From Caldilineaceae bacterium (GTDB lineage Bacteria; Chloroflexota; Anaerolineae; Caldilineales; Caldilineaceae), in the NCBI GenBank assembly GCA_026989655.1, contig JALSIX010000004.1, positions 1-34,834 of the forward strand: 34,834 nt of DNA. Direction: 5' to 3'. The position numbers and the translations under genes are program-made. Positions 11,359-19,124 of the stretch are shown here, piece after piece (position 1 is the stretch's first letter; each line of letters begins with the position of its first letter). The notes under the pieces are model-generated. The model was not told the origin of the DNA. It did not search any database and saw only the letters and a list, made by a program, of their open reading frames with translations.

Positions 11359-12042
11359 CTAGGCGCCCCCATCCCCTCCCGGTCCCCCGGAGCCCTGTGC
11401 CTCCCCCTCCTCGGAATTCGCGGCCCGGTGGGCCCGGGGCGGCCGCTCCTGGTAGGCCAGGCGCAGCGGCTGCCAGGCCTGCCAACGCAACAACGGCTGC
11501 CAGGCCGCCGACCGGGTGGGATCGGCCAAGGTGGCCTCCACCGGGCGGCCGTCCAGGTTCAGGAGCACCGCCACCTCGTCGCAGCGGTGGAACTTGGGGC
11601 AGTAGATACACTCCTGCCACAGCTTGGGACTCACGCTCCACCGGTCCACTACCGAGAAGCCCAGCCGCTCGAAGAAGCCCTCCTGGAGGGTCAACGCGCA
11701 GACCTGCCGAAACCCCCGCTGCCGGGCCAGGTCCACCAACGCGCGCACGATCTGGCTGCCCACCCCCCGCCCCTGGCCCCGGGGATGGACGGCCAGGGAG
11801 CGGATCTCGGCCAGCTCCTCGGTCAGCGCGACCAGGGAACCACAGCCCAGGAAGGCCGGAGCCCCGGTCCCGGCGCCTCCCCTCCCCTCGGCCACCAGCC
11901 AGTTCGCCAGAGAGGCCTGGATGCTCTCCGGGCTCCGAGGGAGCATCAGGTCCTGGGCCGCGAAGGTGTTGACCAGCTCGGCCATGGCCGAGACATCCTC
12001 GGGGCGGGCGGGGCGGATGTGGACGGGAGAAGGGGCTGTCAT
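11359..12042 (-). CDS. argA: GNAT acetyltransferase, probable N-acetylglutamate synthase
   Basis: This 227-aa GNAT-fold protein has the acetyl-CoA-binding motif A VHPRGQGRGVGS and preceding EIRSLAV strand. The C-terminal segments FFERLGF and KLWQECIYCPKFHRCDEVAV match the short, kinase-less N-acetylglutamate synthases seen in several non-proteobacterial phyla. These acetylate glutamate in the first step of arginine synthesis. Its position as the last gene of an argC-argB-argD operon strongly supports this role. The start is the ATG at 12042; the SD is weak. The last 25 residues are low complexity (Gly/Ala/Glu). Another GNAT activity cannot be excluded. Without argJ in the operon, a separate NAG synthase makes sense. 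Confidence 0.78.
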   Translation of the reverse strand: MTAPSPVHIRPARPEDVSAMAELVNTFAAQDLMLPRSPESIQASLANWLVAEGRGGAGTGAPAFLGCGSLVALTEELAEIRSLAVHPRGQGRGVGSQIVRALVDLARQRGFRQVCALTLQEGFFERLGFSVVDRWSVSPKLWQECIYCPKFHRCDEVAVLLNLDGRPVEATLADPTRSAAWQPLLRWQAWQPLRLAYQERPPRAHRAANSEEGEAQGSGGPGGDGGA

Positions 12043-12101
12043 GGCGCCTGGAACCCGGGGCGCGCGACCGAGGACGAGGCCTCCGGCCGGATCGCGAGGG
12101 G

Positions 12102-12419
12102 CTATCCGAACAGGGTCTGCATCCGCAGGGCCACGCCCATGTTGCCCTCCACCCGGATCTTCCCCGTCATGGCCGCGGTGACGGGGTTCAGCTTGCCCTG
12201 GGTGAGGGCCACGTAGTCGTCCGCGGCCATCCGGATGGTGGTGGTGGGGTTGTCGACCCGTCCCTCCTGGACCTCCAGGGTCCCCTCCTGGATGGTGACC
12301 ACCCATTGGCCGCCCCCCTCGCCGGAGAGATCGAACTGGACCACGGCCTTCAGGTCGCCGGCCTTCTCCGGCCGGAAGCGGTCGGGCATGTGCTGGAAGA
12401 TCTCACGCGCTGTGGGCAT
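12102..12419 (-). CDS. SCP2 sterol-carrier-like protein
   Basis: This 105-aa protein has the SCP2 fold pattern: an N-terminal helix (AREIFQHMPDRF), a beta-sheet core (AVVQFDLSG, WVVTIQEGTLEV) and the tail ADDYVALTQGKLNPVTAAMTGKIRVEGN, which is typical of small SCP2/sterol-binding proteins. The family binds lipids or other hydrophobic ligands in a cavity. The ATG at 12419 follows GAGGAGG. It lies between argD and the acetyltransferase in the arginine operon, where a lipid-binding protein is unexpected. Gaps of 146 bp on one side and 59 bp on the other leave room for separate regulation. No arginine-related function is known to me. Confidence 0.85.
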   Translation of the reverse strand: MPTAREIFQHMPDRFRPEKAGDLKAVVQFDLSGEGGGQWVVTIQEGTLEVQEGRVDNPTTTIRMAADDYVALTQGKLNPVTAAMTGKIRVEGNMGVALRMQTLFG

Positions 12420-12565
12420 AGGCTGCCTCCTCGGCATCGGTTCGCTGGGCCTCTGTCCCTTGGGGCCCAGAAGACGTTCCAGGGCGGTCCGCGGCAGAGA
12501 CCCGGGGCGGGCCCGGGCCACGAACCACCGCCCTGTCGGGGAGGAAGGTTCCCGGACGCCGGCGT

Positions 12566-13768
12566 CTAGAGCGCTGCCAGGATGGCCTCCAGGATCTCCA
12601 CGGCCCGGGCCAGCTCCTCCTGTTGGATGACCAGGGGCGGCACAAAGCGGACCACATTGGGCCCCGCGCTCACCAGGAGCAGGCCATGCTCGTATCCCCG
12701 CTCCACCACGGGGCCGGCCTCCACGTCCAGCTCCACCCCCACCATGAGCCCCTGGCCCCGGATCTCCCGGATGTGGGGGCTGTTGATCTCCTGGAGTCGC
12801 TCCACCAGGTATTGTCCCTTGGCCCGAACCTGGGCCAGAAACTCGGGCTGGGCCACCCGCCCCACCACGTGGTGGGCCACATGGGCGGTGAAGGGGTTCC
12901 CCGCGAAGGTGCTGGCGTGGTCGCCGGGGTGGATGGCGTCCGCGACCTTCTGCCTCATCAGGATGGCGCCCATGGGCAGACCGCCGGCCAACGGCTTCGC
13001 CGCGGTGAGGATATCCGGCTCCACGCCATAGCCCTGGTAGGCCCAGAGGTGGCCCGTCCGCCCCAGGCCACACTGGACCTCGTCGAAGATGAGCAGCGCG
13101 TCGTGGGCGTCGGCCAGCTCCCGCAGCCCCTGCAGGAACTCCTGGGTGGCCGGATGGATGCCCCCCTCGCCCTGGATGGGCTCCACGATGATGGCACACA
13201 CCCGAGAGTCCATGGCGGCCTGGGCGCTCGCCAGGTCGTTGAAGGCCGCGAAACGGACGCCGGGCATGAGGGGGCGGAAGGGGGCCTGGTACTGCTCCCG
13301 GGGCGTCGCGGCCAAGGAGCCGAAGAGCCGACCGTGGAACGCGCCGTGGAAGGCCAGGATCTCGTACTTGTCCGGATGGCCCCTTTCCCGGGCATAGCGG
13401 CGGGCGAACTTGAACGCCCCCTCGTTGGCATCCGCGCCGGTCAGGCTGAAGTGGACCTTGTCCGCGAAGCTGGTCTCGCAGAGAAGCTTGGCCAGCCGGG
13501 CATGGGGCTCTGTGTGGTAGAGGTTGCTCACGTGGAGGAGGCCCGTGGCCGCGGCCTCGGCCATGGCCTGGCGGATCCCTGGGTCGTTGTAGCCCAGGAC
13601 GTTCACCGCGATGCCCGCGACGCAGTCCAGGTAGGCCTGGCCCTGGCTGTCGTAGAGGGTACACCCCTCCCCGCGGACCAGCACGAAGGGCGGGCGGGTG
13701 TAGACGCCCAGCACATACTCCCGCTCCATCTGCACGACTTCCTGGGCATGGGTGGAGGTGGTCGTCAC
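12566..13768 (-). CDS. argD: acetylornithine aminotransferase
   Basis: This 400-aa class-III PLP-dependent aminotransferase converts N-acetylglutamate semialdehyde to N-acetylornithine. Visible motifs are the cofactor aspartate D229 in IFDEVQCGLGRTG, the Schiff-base lysine K258 in AAKPLAGGLPMG, and EPIQGEGG. The N-terminal PLP-phosphate region reads SLTGADANEGAFKFAR where many ArgD have NSGAEANE, a small divergence. The GTG at 13768 has AGGAGAG upstream and matches the usual length. Gene order argC-argB-argD supports ArgD over ornithine or GABA aminotransferases of the same class. Such enzymes may also serve lysine (DapC) synthesis. Confidence 0.95.
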   Translation of the reverse strand: MTTTSTHAQEVVQMEREYVLGVYTRPPFVLVRGEGCTLYDSQGQAYLDCVAGIAVNVLGYNDPGIRQAMAEAAATGLLHVSNLYHTEPHARLAKLLCETSFADKVHFSLTGADANEGAFKFARRYARERGHPDKYEILAFHGAFHGRLFGSLAATPREQYQAPFRPLMPGVRFAAFNDLASAQAAMDSRVCAIIVEPIQGEGGIHPATQEFLQGLRELADAHDALLIFDEVQCGLGRTGHLWAYQGYGVEPDILTAAKPLAGGLPMGAILMRQKVADAIHPGDHASTFAGNPFTAHVAHHVVGRVAQPEFLAQVRAKGQYLVERLQEINSPHIREIRGQGLMVGVELDVEAGPVVERGYEHGLLLVSAGPNVVRFVPPLVIQQEELARAVEILEAILAAL

Positions 13769-13829: not shown

Positions 13830-14651
13830 CTAGCCGGCGATGATCCCGGTCCCGGTATCCTCCTGGACACCGGCCAGGTTGGTGATGACCGCCTGGATGA
13901 CCCCCCGACGGACGGCCTCCACCGCGCTGCGCACCTTGGGGACCATGCCCCCGTAGATGCTCCCCTCCCGGATCCAGGCCTCGGCCTGGTCCGCGGTGAT
14001 GGCCCGCACCACCCGGCCCGCGATGAGGACACCGGGCACGTTGCTCACGAAGATGAGCTTCACCGCCCCCAGCCTGGCCGCGATGGCCGCGGCCGCGTGG
14101 TCCGCGTTCACGTTGTAGCTCCGCGCGTCGTAGGCGCCGAAGCTCACCGGGCTGATGACCGGCACGATGGCCGCGCCCAACAGGGCCTGGATCAGATAGG
14201 GATCCACGTCCTGGATCTCCCCCACCCGGCCCAGGTCGCCCAGGGGGTGCCACATGCGCTCCACGTAGATGGTCCCCCCGTCCACGCCGCTGATCCCCGC
14301 AGCCCGGATGCCCTGGTCCACCAGGGCTCGGACGATGCGCTTGTTCATGAGCCCGCTGAGGACCATCTCCACCACGTCCATCCCCTCGTCCGTGGTCACC
14401 CGCAGGCCCTCCAGGAACTCCGGCTCCATGCCCAGGCGCTGTTGGAGATGGGCAATGGCCTTGCCCCCTCCGTGGACGATCACGGGATGGCGGCCCTCCT
14501 CCTGAAGGTGGCGCACCGTGGTGGCCAGGCCGTAGAGGAAGGCCTCGTCGTCCAGCTCGTTGCCCCCCACCTTCAGGACCACCACGTAGCTCGGCTCCGG
14601 GGCGCCCTCCTCCTGGGGGGGCTCGGCGGGTTGGATGCGGTCGTCGCCCAT
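13830..14651 (-). CDS. argB: acetylglutamate kinase
   Basis: This 273-aa amino-acid-kinase-family enzyme phosphorylates N-acetylglutamate, the second step of arginine synthesis. It has the KVGGNELDD phosphate-binding start, VHGGGKAI, the substrate-binding NVNADHAAAAIA, and GGMVPKV near the C-terminus. An N-terminal extension of about 20 acidic/proline residues precedes the core. I see no ArgR-type or PII-interaction helix at the N-terminus that would predict arginine feedback. The ATG at 14651 lies 18 bp after argC. A LysZ-like role cannot be excluded by motif alone, but no LysW gene is nearby and the leader carries arginine codons. Confidence 0.95.
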   Translation of the reverse strand: MGDDRIQPAEPPQEEGAPEPSYVVVLKVGGNELDDEAFLYGLATTVRHLQEEGRHPVIVHGGGKAIAHLQQRLGMEPEFLEGLRVTTDEGMDVVEMVLSGLMNKRIVRALVDQGIRAAGISGVDGGTIYVERMWHPLGDLGRVGEIQDVDPYLIQALLGAAIVPVISPVSFGAYDARSYNVNADHAAAAIAARLGAVKLIFVSNVPGVLIAGRVVRAITADQAEAWIREGSIYGGMVPKVRSAVEAVRRGVIQAVITNLAGVQEDTGTGIIAG

Positions 14652-14669: not shown

Positions 14670-15710
14670 TCAGAGCAGCCCGGCCGTCTCGTCCAGGCCC
14701 ACTGCGATGTTGAAGCACTGGATGGCCTGGCCGCTGGCGCCCTTGAGCAGGTTGTCGATGCTGGCGGCCACCACGTACTCGGTCCCTGGGGCAGGGCCCG
14801 GGTCCACGGGGATCAGGCCGATGGCACAGCGGTTCGTGTGGACCGTGTGGGCCAGGGACGGGAGCTGGCCCGGCGGCAACAGGTGGATGAAGGGCTCGCC
14901 CGCGTAGCGCTCTCGATAGAGGGCCCAGATGGCGGACTCGTCCACGTCCGGGGGCACCCGGACGTACATGGTGCTCAGGATGCCCCGGCTCACCGGCAGC
15001 AGGTGGGGCGTGAACAGGAACCGTCGTTCCACCGGGCCATTGGCCCGGTTGAGCACCAGTTCCATCTCCGCGATGTGGCGGTGGCGGCGCCCTGGGCTGT
15101 AGGGGGCGATGTTCTCGTTGGCCTCCACGAAGTGGTACCGGAGCTGGACCTTGCGCCCGGCCCCACTGATGCCGCTCTTCGCGTCCACGATGACCGGATC
15201 GCCCAGCCACCCTGCCCGGGCCAGGGGATAGAGGCCCAGGTTCACGCTGGTAGGGTAACAGCCCGGCACCGCGATGAGCCGACTCCCCCGAAGGGTCTCC
15301 CGGAAGAGCTCACACAGGCCGTAGCGGGCCTGGGCCAGGAGTTCCGGCGCGGTGTGCTGGACCCCGTACCAGCGGGTGTAGAGGGCCGGATCGGGCAGGC
15401 GGAAGTCCGCGCTCAGGTCGATGACCAGAAGCCCGGCCCGGTGGAAGCGCTGCACCGCCGCCATGGAGGCCCCGTGGGGCAGGCAGAGGAAGACCGCGTC
15501 CACCTGGCCTGCCCGGGCATAGGCCTCCTCCAGCGGGATCAGGGGCAGGTCCCAGGGCCCTGGGTGGACCTGGCTGAGGGTCTGCCCTGCGGTGCGTTCA
15601 CCGGTCAGCCAGCCGAGCTCCAGATGGGGGTGGCGGTGGATCAGTTTGACCAGCTCGAGTCCCGTGTATCCGCTGGCGCCGACGATGCCGGCTCGGTAAC
15701 GTGACGACAT
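14670..15710 (-). CDS. argC: N-acetyl-gamma-glutamyl-phosphate reductase
   Basis: This 346-aa NADPH-dependent reductase forms N-acetylglutamate semialdehyde. The N-terminal GASGYTG (residues 11-17) binds NADP, and catalytic C151 lies in AVPGCYPTSV. KSGISGAGRK and the C-terminal segments fit the family. The ATG at 15710 is first in the operon; the upstream SD is weak (AGGA). It follows a 250-nt leader with a leader peptide and terminator that probably attenuate transcription of the whole operon. Its length is typical for type-1 ArgC. Confidence 0.97.
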   Translation of the reverse strand: MSSRYRAGIVGASGYTGLELVKLIHRHPHLELGWLTGERTAGQTLSQVHPGPWDLPLIPLEEAYARAGQVDAVFLCLPHGASMAAVQRFHRAGLLVIDLSADFRLPDPALYTRWYGVQHTAPELLAQARYGLCELFRETLRGSRLIAVPGCYPTSVNLGLYPLARAGWLGDPVIVDAKSGISGAGRKVQLRYHFVEANENIAPYSPGRRHRHIAEMELVLNRANGPVERRFLFTPHLLPVSRGILSTMYVRVPPDVDESAIWALYRERYAGEPFIHLLPPGQLPSLAHTVHTNRCAIGLIPVDPGPAPGTEYVVAASIDNLLKGASGQAIQCFNIAVGLDETAGLL

Positions 15711-15765: not shown

Positions 15766-15792
15766 AAAAAAGCTCTCCGTCTGGAGAGCTTT
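15766..15792 (-). terminator. intrinsic terminator in the argC leader (attenuator)
   Basis: Read on the minus strand, AAAGCTCTCC, a 4-nt loop AGAC, GGAGAGCTTT and further T residues form a perfect 10-bp hairpin with a T-tract (A's at 15766-15771 on the plus strand). It lies 55 nt before the argC start and after the promoter, so it can only act on the operon's own transcripts. Confidence 0.9.
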
Positions 15793-15845
15793 GCGGAAGC
15801 GCCGTTCCCAGGGTGGAGGCCGTACACCGTACCCACGCGCAAAGG

Positions 15846-15961
15846 TCCAGACGGGATGCCTGGTCACAGGATACGGCGGCGCCTCGGGCCACGGGTGCAG
15901 GGAACGGCGAACATGGCGGTCACTCGGCTTCGCATCCAGGGAATGGGAGCCCCGATCTCCT
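15846..15961 (-). promoter_or_regulatory. argC leader: putative arginine attenuator with antiterminator strand
   Basis: The leader starts near 15961 and includes the arginine-rich reading frame (15864-15935). Directly after it, minus-strand CCGTCTGGA (15846-15854) is the exact complement of minus-strand TCCAGACGG (15777-15785), which spans the loop and adjoining stem of the terminator. Pairing these 9 bases would disrupt the terminator. A ribosome at the leader stop would cover this strand, whereas a ribosome stalled on the arginine codons would leave it free. This is the classical attenuation logic. Sequence-based inference; folding was done by eye. Confidence 0.75.
15864..15935 (-). CDS. 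arginine-rich leader peptide
   Basis: This is a 24-codon frame (23 residues) between the operon promoter and the terminator. It encodes seven arginines: two near the start, one at codon 15 (CGT), and four in a row at codons 18-21 (AGG CGC CGC CGT, 15873-15884), followed by Ile-Leu-stop. The start could be the ATG at 15935 or an in-frame ATG at 15914; both include the arginine run. AGGAG at the very 5' end of the transcript is 20 nt from the first ATG, a poor spacing unless a small hairpin (GGAG/CTCC) shortens it. It is too short for a functional protein. Confidence 0.7.
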   Translation of the reverse strand: MRSRVTAMFAVPCTRGPRRRRIL

Positions 15962-15967
15962 GCGAAA

Positions 15968-15996
15968 AGTGTATCACTCCCCTGGAGAGATGTCAA
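15968..15996 (-). promoter_or_regulatory. promoter of the argC operon
   Basis: On the minus strand, TTGACA (15991-15996) and TACACT (15968-15973) are separated by 17 bp. The predicted start is an A at 15961. It is divergent to the 16027-16055 promoter. I saw no clear ARG-box (ArgR operator) around it. Confidence 0.85.
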
Positions 15997-16026
15997 AACT
16001 GGGTCGTTTGGCAGATAGATCAAAAG

Positions 16027-16055
16027 TTCGATGTCCAGGGCTTCTGTGGTATACT
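16027..16055 (+). promoter_or_regulatory. promoter of the membrane protein gene
   Basis: TTCGAT (16027-16032), 17 bp, then TATACT (16050-16055) with an extended -10 TGG (16047-16049). The predicted start near 16062 places the long-frame ATG at 16031 upstream of the transcript, supporting the ATG at 16106. Confidence 0.65.
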
Positions 16056-16105
16056 ATGGAGGTTCGACCACGTGGAAGCCAAGCACCCGGATCGAGTGCT
16101 GTGTG

Positions 16106-19124
<3,019 letters not shown>

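Follow-up and report, generated by a model that had tools for sequence, protein, structure and literature searches.

Organization of the argC leader region

The window, by which we mean the whole 34,834-nucleotide stretch of Caldilineaceae DNA analyzed here, carries a group of minus-strand genes that, with the exception of a small SCP2-domain gene, all fit the arginine pathway. They are preceded by a leader region (15996-15766), the terminator of which lies directly before argC-argB-argD. The leader elements and genes are listed below in the 5' to 3' direction of the minus strand.

15968..15996 (-), sigma-70-type promoter driving the leader, TTGACA-N17-TACACT (-35 box TTGACA, 15996-15991; 17-nt spacer; -10 box TACACT, 15973-15968), with a TG two bases before the -10 box
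15864..15935 (-), leader peptide ORF MRSRVTAMFAVPCTRGPRRRRIL*, 23 codons, 7 of them Arg
15873..15884 (-), run of four Arg codons, AGG CGC CGC CGT, the predicted stall site; placing the A site here refolds the downstream RNA to the antiterminator
15869..15878 (-), strand 1, CGCCGTATCC, overlapping the Arg codons (minimum-energy fold)
15838..15854 (-), strand 2, 5' arm of the antiterminator, CCGTCTGGACCTTTGCG, with a conserved GCGyGG just 3' of it
15777..15795 (-), strand 3, CGCAAAGCTCTCCAGACGG, partner of strand 2 (antiterminator) or of the 3' arm of the terminator, with three-way covariation
15766..15792 (-), intrinsic terminator AAAGCTCTCC-AGAC-GGAGAGCTTT followed by a T-tract, 10-bp stem and AGAC loop
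14670..15710 (-), argC, N-acetyl-gamma-glutamyl-phosphate reductase (TIGR01850, 376 bits), start at 15710
13830..14651 (-), argB, acetylglutamate kinase (TIGR00761, 223 bits)
12566..13669 (-), argD, acetylornithine aminotransferase (TIGR00707), 5' end of the gene not fixed
12102..12437 (-), small SCP2-domain gene (PF02036) between argD and the acetyltransferase gene, coordinates from the ORF list
11359..12306 (-), GNAT N-acetyltransferase, N-acetylglutamate-synthase-like (NF005840, amino-acid N-acetyltransferase models, PF00583), true start within the frame

The promoter is the sole promoter-like match in the 900 nt between positions 15400 and 16300 (0.1 expected in shuffled sequences), and promoters of a similar type are found upstream from most of the leaders of relatives. 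In the minimum-energy fold, strand 1 pairs with 15834-15825, together with a nested CCAG/CTGG pairing, which keeps strand 2 sequestered in the absence of a stalled ribosome. The terminator has a folding stability of -15.0 kcal/mol. The original prediction for this locus had described the promoter, a 23-residue frame with four Arg codons in a row plus three others, and a 10-bp terminator with a T-tract before argC, and each of these was confirmed on the minus strand. It had also proposed a 9-nt complementarity, and this pairing is real: CCGTCTGGA (15854-15846) begins 9 nt past the leader stop codon and is complementary to TCCAGACGG (15785-15777). Its extent was nevertheless understated, the antiterminator comprising 16 bp (9 + 7) between CCGUCUGGA-C-CUUUGCG (15854-15838) and CGCAAAG-CUC-UCCAGACGG (15795-15777).

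A plain end-of-gene terminator was considered and ruled out, because the upstream neighbor is divergent and the leader is the only transcript entering this site. The divergent frame (16020-17089, plus strand) had no Pfam or NCBIfam match and is preceded, near 16045-16055, by a promoter-like site of its own, TGTGGTATACT.

Conservation of the leader in the Caldilineaceae

ArgC was detected in 45 of the 46 genomes of the family; the first argC or the region upstream from it falls outside the assembly in G003, G024, G028 and G034. Almost all genera have a short Arg-codon ORF, strand 2 and a terminator within the 40-200 nt that precede argC or a small gene located just ahead of it, with the family-wide forms TCTGGnnCTTTGCGCGyGG for strand 2 and GCAAAGCTCTCCAGnnGGAGnGCTTTTTT for the terminator. 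Apart from the Arg codons, the leader peptides vary freely (MNPTNTCSTQLRRRPRQ, MNTRRAPLPKSRRRSGF, MKTGMIGSKTTQKQLRSRRRLSVAG, MNTCALFVYNLRSRRFASRTGH and MTMHRIHPRAARPIRRS). A covariance model (hereafter referred to as R1) identified the element in 43 of the 46 genomes, about 41 of them with strong matches and, assembly duplicates aside, with one strong match per genome.

The Arg run, strand 2 and the terminator are thus kept in the main across related argC leaders. The original prediction had named the loss of Arg codons or complementarity in genomes retaining argC as evidence that would count against it, and such losses were found only at the edges, in genus g7 and in G032. Genus g7 keeps the RNA core with a single Arg codon, AGG (MNQHKSCSSLLRKSPEQ). 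In G032, a reduced form precedes argC (MMAQRKRRSSPRW..., locus L028), with Arg codons abutting the terminator stem and no strand 2; here, a ribosome stalled on these codons might itself prevent the terminator from forming.

At several loci (L003, L005-L008, L013 and L036), the attenuator is followed by a gene of about 210 aa, PAI2/FMN-binding-like by eye, and then by argC; this gene would share the regulation of the arginine genes. At another (L061/L015, G018:C1:4590351-4592297), the attenuator and argC are kept apart by a 301-aa ORF that lies on the opposite strand and resembles a transposase on visual inspection.

Covariation of the mutually exclusive helices

Covariation was assessed on a MAFFT alignment of 24 leaders (hereafter referred to as A1), in which a strand-2 insertion of genus g2 was misplaced by the program, making the g2 counts conservative. 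For the antiterminator, 88% of cells were paired and 12 were double-change cells, a result reached in 0 of 500 shuffles; slid versions of this helix were paired in no more than 50%. For the 1:2 helix and the terminator, taken together, 91% of cells were paired and 13 were double-change cells, again a result reached in 0 of 500 shuffles, and the terminator alone was paired in 94% (23 leaders). Compensatory changes, proposed as a test along with the original prediction, were therefore detected in both of the competing structures.

Changes at column 82 (U or C) are matched by changes at two others, column 20 (A or G) on the antiterminator side and column 91 (A or G) on the terminator side; one strand therefore retains two mutually exclusive partners. 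The change at column 82 is limited to genus g3, to which part of the covariation can be traced, and corresponds to one or a few events. The change at columns 14/88 (GC to AU) is seen in several genera.

Arginine codons and predicted leader translation

In 44 leaders, Arg accounted for 19.6% of the codons in frame, versus 8.7% and 7.0% for the two remaining frames, a count biased by the choice of ORFs partly on the basis of their Arg content. We therefore also used an ORF-free approach, counting the loci with at least three codons for one amino acid in any six-codon window, in any frame, with dinucleotide shuffles for comparison. Arg runs were found at 32 of the 46 loci, versus 15.1 ± 3.1 in 200 shuffles (maximum 24). 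Gly and Glu were likewise raised, as would be expected when AGGAGG is read out of frame. The leader can be considered to exceed chance, because R1 gives one strong match per genome, before argC, and the Arg excess is greater than that in every shuffle. AGG makes up 75 of the 156 leader Arg codons, versus 3 of 67 in the argCBD genes of the window's genome. This preference points either to a sensitive isoacceptor or to an RNA constraint and, given the AGG share, some of the Arg enrichment may be RNA- or codon-driven.

A spacing of only 6-10 nt between the -10 box and the leader ATG was observed at 21 of the 44 loci, such that the transcript would start at the ATG or a few bases before it. The leader mRNAs of these loci are accordingly predicted to be leaderless, a situation reported for the trpL mRNA of Sinorhizobium meliloti (PMC10117765). 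In the window's genome, 32 nt separate the -10 box from the leader ATG, and no clear Shine-Dalgarno sequence was found before this ATG.

Folding of the leader with and without a ribosome

The leader of the window's genome was folded with a 13-nt downstream ribosome footprint and the exact terminator arms. Its default fold consists of the 1:2 hairpin and the terminator: with no ribosome, 9.3 of the 10 terminator pairs and none of those of the 2:3 helix were formed. With the A site on AGG, CGC, CGC or CGT (codons 18-21), the 2:3 helix had 12.1-15.5 pairs and the terminator 2.1-0.0, and the flip to the antiterminator began at codon 18, the first of the Arg run. A ribosome at the stop codon gave a mixed state (7.7 pairs in the 2:3 helix and 4.6 in the terminator). 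Folding in two states, proposed along with the original prediction, thus yielded the change from terminator to antiterminator with the four-Arg run in the A site.

The analysis was extended to 44 leaders by an automated procedure, in which the terminator of the window's genome was mis-delimited; the values for this genome are those obtained with the exact arms. At full-transcript equilibrium with a finished terminator, a switch was seen in just 7 of the 44 leaders, the terminator being favored in most. We judged this calculation too blunt as a general test of switching, and instead folded the RNA as it would be before the 3' arm of the terminator is made. Over the 44 leaders, the mean number of pairs between the upstream RNA and the 5' arm and loop of the terminator was then 3.2 in the absence of a ribosome, 3.9 for a ribosome stalled early and 8.1 for one stalled on Arg codons. 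The Arg stall added at least four pairs in 28 of the 44 leaders and, with the ribosome at the stop codon, many leaders dropped to near zero. As the equilibrium favors the terminator in most leaders, the switch is assumed to be kinetic, through co-transcriptional competition. Kinetic switching is also the case in other attenuators.

Distribution in the class and phylum

A search of 396 genomes of the class with R1 yielded strong matches in families f15, f17, f21, f24, f31, f33 and f37. The element has therefore spread beyond the Caldilineaceae to at least seven further families, in which it is nearly always located before argC (leaders there include MKMTLRPRRRFF, MERHMPLSLAIRRSRR and MITLFLRSRRPLF). 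Genomes of f15 have extra copies before argS (MLSRCSRCSRCVEPA, MFTQYRCFRPNRLI, MLTFGCFRLRPRQPA and MSSLCRRRARFTPPA) and before argB-argD (MKTSLVRSRRLPQQPA). Among 400 genomes of the phylum, just two matches were obtained outside the class, both in genomes from another class. In one (G537), the element precedes argG, with the leader MNTQHAHMTMLRFRRRTQPDDPSG; in the other (G556; L152, 1501-1595), the core precedes a gene for a LysE-type exporter, and the leader MMMTPHTRTSQQRGQQQPDRRSG is rich in Gln besides Arg. Outside the window's genome, the arginine gene directly downstream from the terminator is argC, argS, argB or argG. Weak matches at L110, L112-L116, L153 and L224 were judged to be due to chance, as either a leader ORF or a suitable gene was missing.

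A sister element with lysine codons

A weak R1 match before the homocitrate synthase gene of G037 (L111; TIGR02146) was accompanied by Lys codons. A Lys-codon leader precedes the gene for homocitrate synthase, an enzyme of the lysine pathway, in more than 20 genomes of the family, and these leaders end in KKSKK-type runs (MSLFATFVKKSKKECPD and MQAQLFVAKKKSKKQKPD). The window's genome has one such element:

G000:C119:120-228 (L141, L206), Lys-codon attenuator before homocitrate synthase, leader MPWTMIERGSLPVAIVAKKKSKRIPEPD

The Lys core has the form CCGGAC..GTCTGG..CTTGCTC..CCAGAC plus a terminator, and the Lys-codon stretch GAGCAAG is complementary to CTTGCTC. Over both helices, 92% of cells were paired, with almost no variation. 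Covariation was nil for the 1:2 helix, which hardly varies and so speaks neither for nor against this pairing; the antiterminator was 97% paired, with four double-change cells (11 of 500 shuffles). A second covariance model (hereafter referred to as R3) identified the Lys element before homocitrate synthase in further families of the class, with KKQSKAKKPDR-type leaders. R3 also scored some argC leaders, as expected if the Arg and Lys elements are related. At the level of the sequence, the replacement of Arg by Lys codons before lysine genes constitutes a natural codon swap.

Comparison with known regulators and attenuators

The C-terminal domain of ArgR was detected in none of the 46 genomes of the family and in none of 249 genomes of the class, whereas 8 of 14 controls were positive. 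ArgR/AhrC acting at ARG boxes also adjusts arginine biosynthesis to arginine supply, but by a protein-DNA mechanism. No Rfam 15 family was found at the leader at the gathering score. In a lax scan, the best match was to Leu_leader (RF00512; 20.2 bits, E = 0.07), and no T-box was obtained. We rejected Leu_leader as an assignment, because the score falls below the gathering cut-off of 50 bits and the codons are for Arg rather than Leu, and consider the match to be an architectural echo.

The likeness of the element to the his, trp, leu, thr and ilv leader-peptide attenuators (Leu_leader and relatives) lies in the promoter, the short ORF with a run of cognate codons, the exclusive 1:2, 2:3 and 3:4 helices and the intrinsic terminator before a biosynthetic operon. 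Unlike these attenuators, the element described here has Arg (or Lys) codons, occurs in Chloroflexota, scores below the Rfam cut-offs and has a leader mRNA often predicted to be leaderless. In addition, a single core serves argC, argB, argS, argG and, with Lys codons, homocitrate synthase. Comparative genomics has revealed histidine attenuators outside Proteobacteria and Actinobacteria, in the Bacillus cereus group and others (PMC9413887; PMC2965389); those of the Bacillus cereus group are in Firmicutes and have His codons, and these two papers include no arginine cases.

In Rfam 15 and the open-access literature, the search extending to few subscription journals, we found no attenuator with arginine or lysine codons controlling the corresponding biosynthesis genes. 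Among the papers found, arginine codons in a leader were described only for speF of Salmonella (PMC6386406). In that system, Arg codons in a short upstream ORF, orf34, stall the ribosome at low arginine levels and alter the folding of the mRNA (PMC6386406). However, speF serves putrescine rather than arginine synthesis, control involves Rho-dependent termination, RNase G and masking of the ribosome-binding site, there are only two consecutive Arg codons, and we found no mention of an intrinsic-terminator switch (PMC6386406). The leaders studied here lack the HIRRT..HIMM core of ORF34 (DUF2618) given there, and have an intrinsic terminator and arg genes instead.

Discussion

The region 15996-15766 (minus strand) is, in all likelihood, a ribosome-mediated transcription attenuator sensing charged tRNA-Arg and controlling the argC-argB-argD-SCP2-acetyltransferase operon. 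The evidence consists of the elements themselves, their conservation, the covariation of the exclusive helices, the in-frame enrichment in Arg codons, the gene context and the codon swap. The reading of the leader as an attenuator of the his/trp/leu type, put forward in the original prediction, is supported by the conservation, the compensatory changes and the two-state folding. We infer from these features leader translation, stalling on uncharged tRNA-Arg, regulation and its effect size. Transcription would start upstream from the short leader ORF. With ample arginine, the ribosome would clear the Arg run and reach the stop codon; strand 2 would be held by strand 1 or covered by the ribosome, and the terminator would form before argC. 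Under arginine shortage, the ribosome would stall on AGG CGC CGC CGT and mask strand 1, leaving strand 2 to form its 16-bp pairing with strand 3, such that no terminator would form and the operon would be read. The conserved GG-N7/8-TTTGCG resembles an elemental RNA polymerase pause, and could hold the polymerase for the ribosome.

Several other explanations of the same features were weighed. T-boxes regulate arginine genes in some groups and are common in the family (matches in 46 of 46 genomes), but control of argC by a tRNA-Arg T-box or another known riboswitch, with an incidental Arg-rich ORF, is extremely unlikely: the Rfam scans provided no such assignment even at lax settings, the T-box matches in the window's genome lie on other contigs, with none at the argC leader, none of the matches listed for the family as a whole is at argC, and the specifier loop and T-box sequence are absent from the leader. 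Direct binding of an RNA-binding protein or metabolite to the conserved UCUGG..UUUGCGCG core, with no need for leader translation, would account for the conservation of UUUGCGCGyGG past the needs of antiterminator pairing. This conservation might equally reflect pairing with strand 1 or a pause site, and direct binding is difficult to reconcile with the in-frame Arg excess in an otherwise free peptide sequence, the position of the ATG at the expected transcript start (21 of 44 leaders) and the Lys-for-Arg swap at lysine genes; we regard it as highly improbable.

The abundance of AGG in the leaders, rather than in argCBD, and the Gly and Glu enrichment from AGGAGG would fit a constitutive pause set by AGG codons or AGGAGG, through anti-Shine-Dalgarno pairing or a rare tRNA. 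Such a pause is very unlikely to be the explanation, given that many leaders have runs of CGC, CGT or CGA (MKMTLRPRRRFF, LRFRRRTQ), that the Lys leaders combine the same core with Lys codons in place of AGG, and that the targets throughout are arginine genes. An Arg-rich leader peptide before an arginine gene also recalls the fungal arginine attenuator peptide, and the nascent peptide might sense free arginine in the exit tunnel. Arrest peptides require conserved residues, however, whereas these leader peptides share only their Arg codons, and the Lys-codon copy has the same anatomy, making sensing of this kind exceedingly improbable.

Attenuation through charged tRNA-Arg remains the preferred reading. 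The textbook leader-peptide attenuators respond to His, Trp, Leu, Ile/Val, Thr, Phe and Cys, whereas the familiar regulators of arginine and lysine biosynthesis are repressors, T-boxes and riboswitches. We consider it rather likely that, in Anaerolineae-type Chloroflexota, ArgR has been replaced by a modular attenuator, with duplication of an ancestral core (CCrGAC..GUCUGG..terminator) and exchange of its codons giving rise to an Arg sensor (argC/argB/argS, and argG in a neighboring class) and a Lys sensor (lysine genes of the alpha-aminoadipate pathway). The Arg/Lys codon exchange on one RNA core provides an evolutionary test of the notion that codon identity sets specificity, and the covariance model is ready for use in annotation and to locate arg and lys genes in Chloroflexota metagenomes. 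Both basic amino acids are apparently sensed by classic attenuation across a class without detectable ArgR, and such class-wide attenuation would account for the way in which these poorly studied bacteria keep their arginine supply under control.
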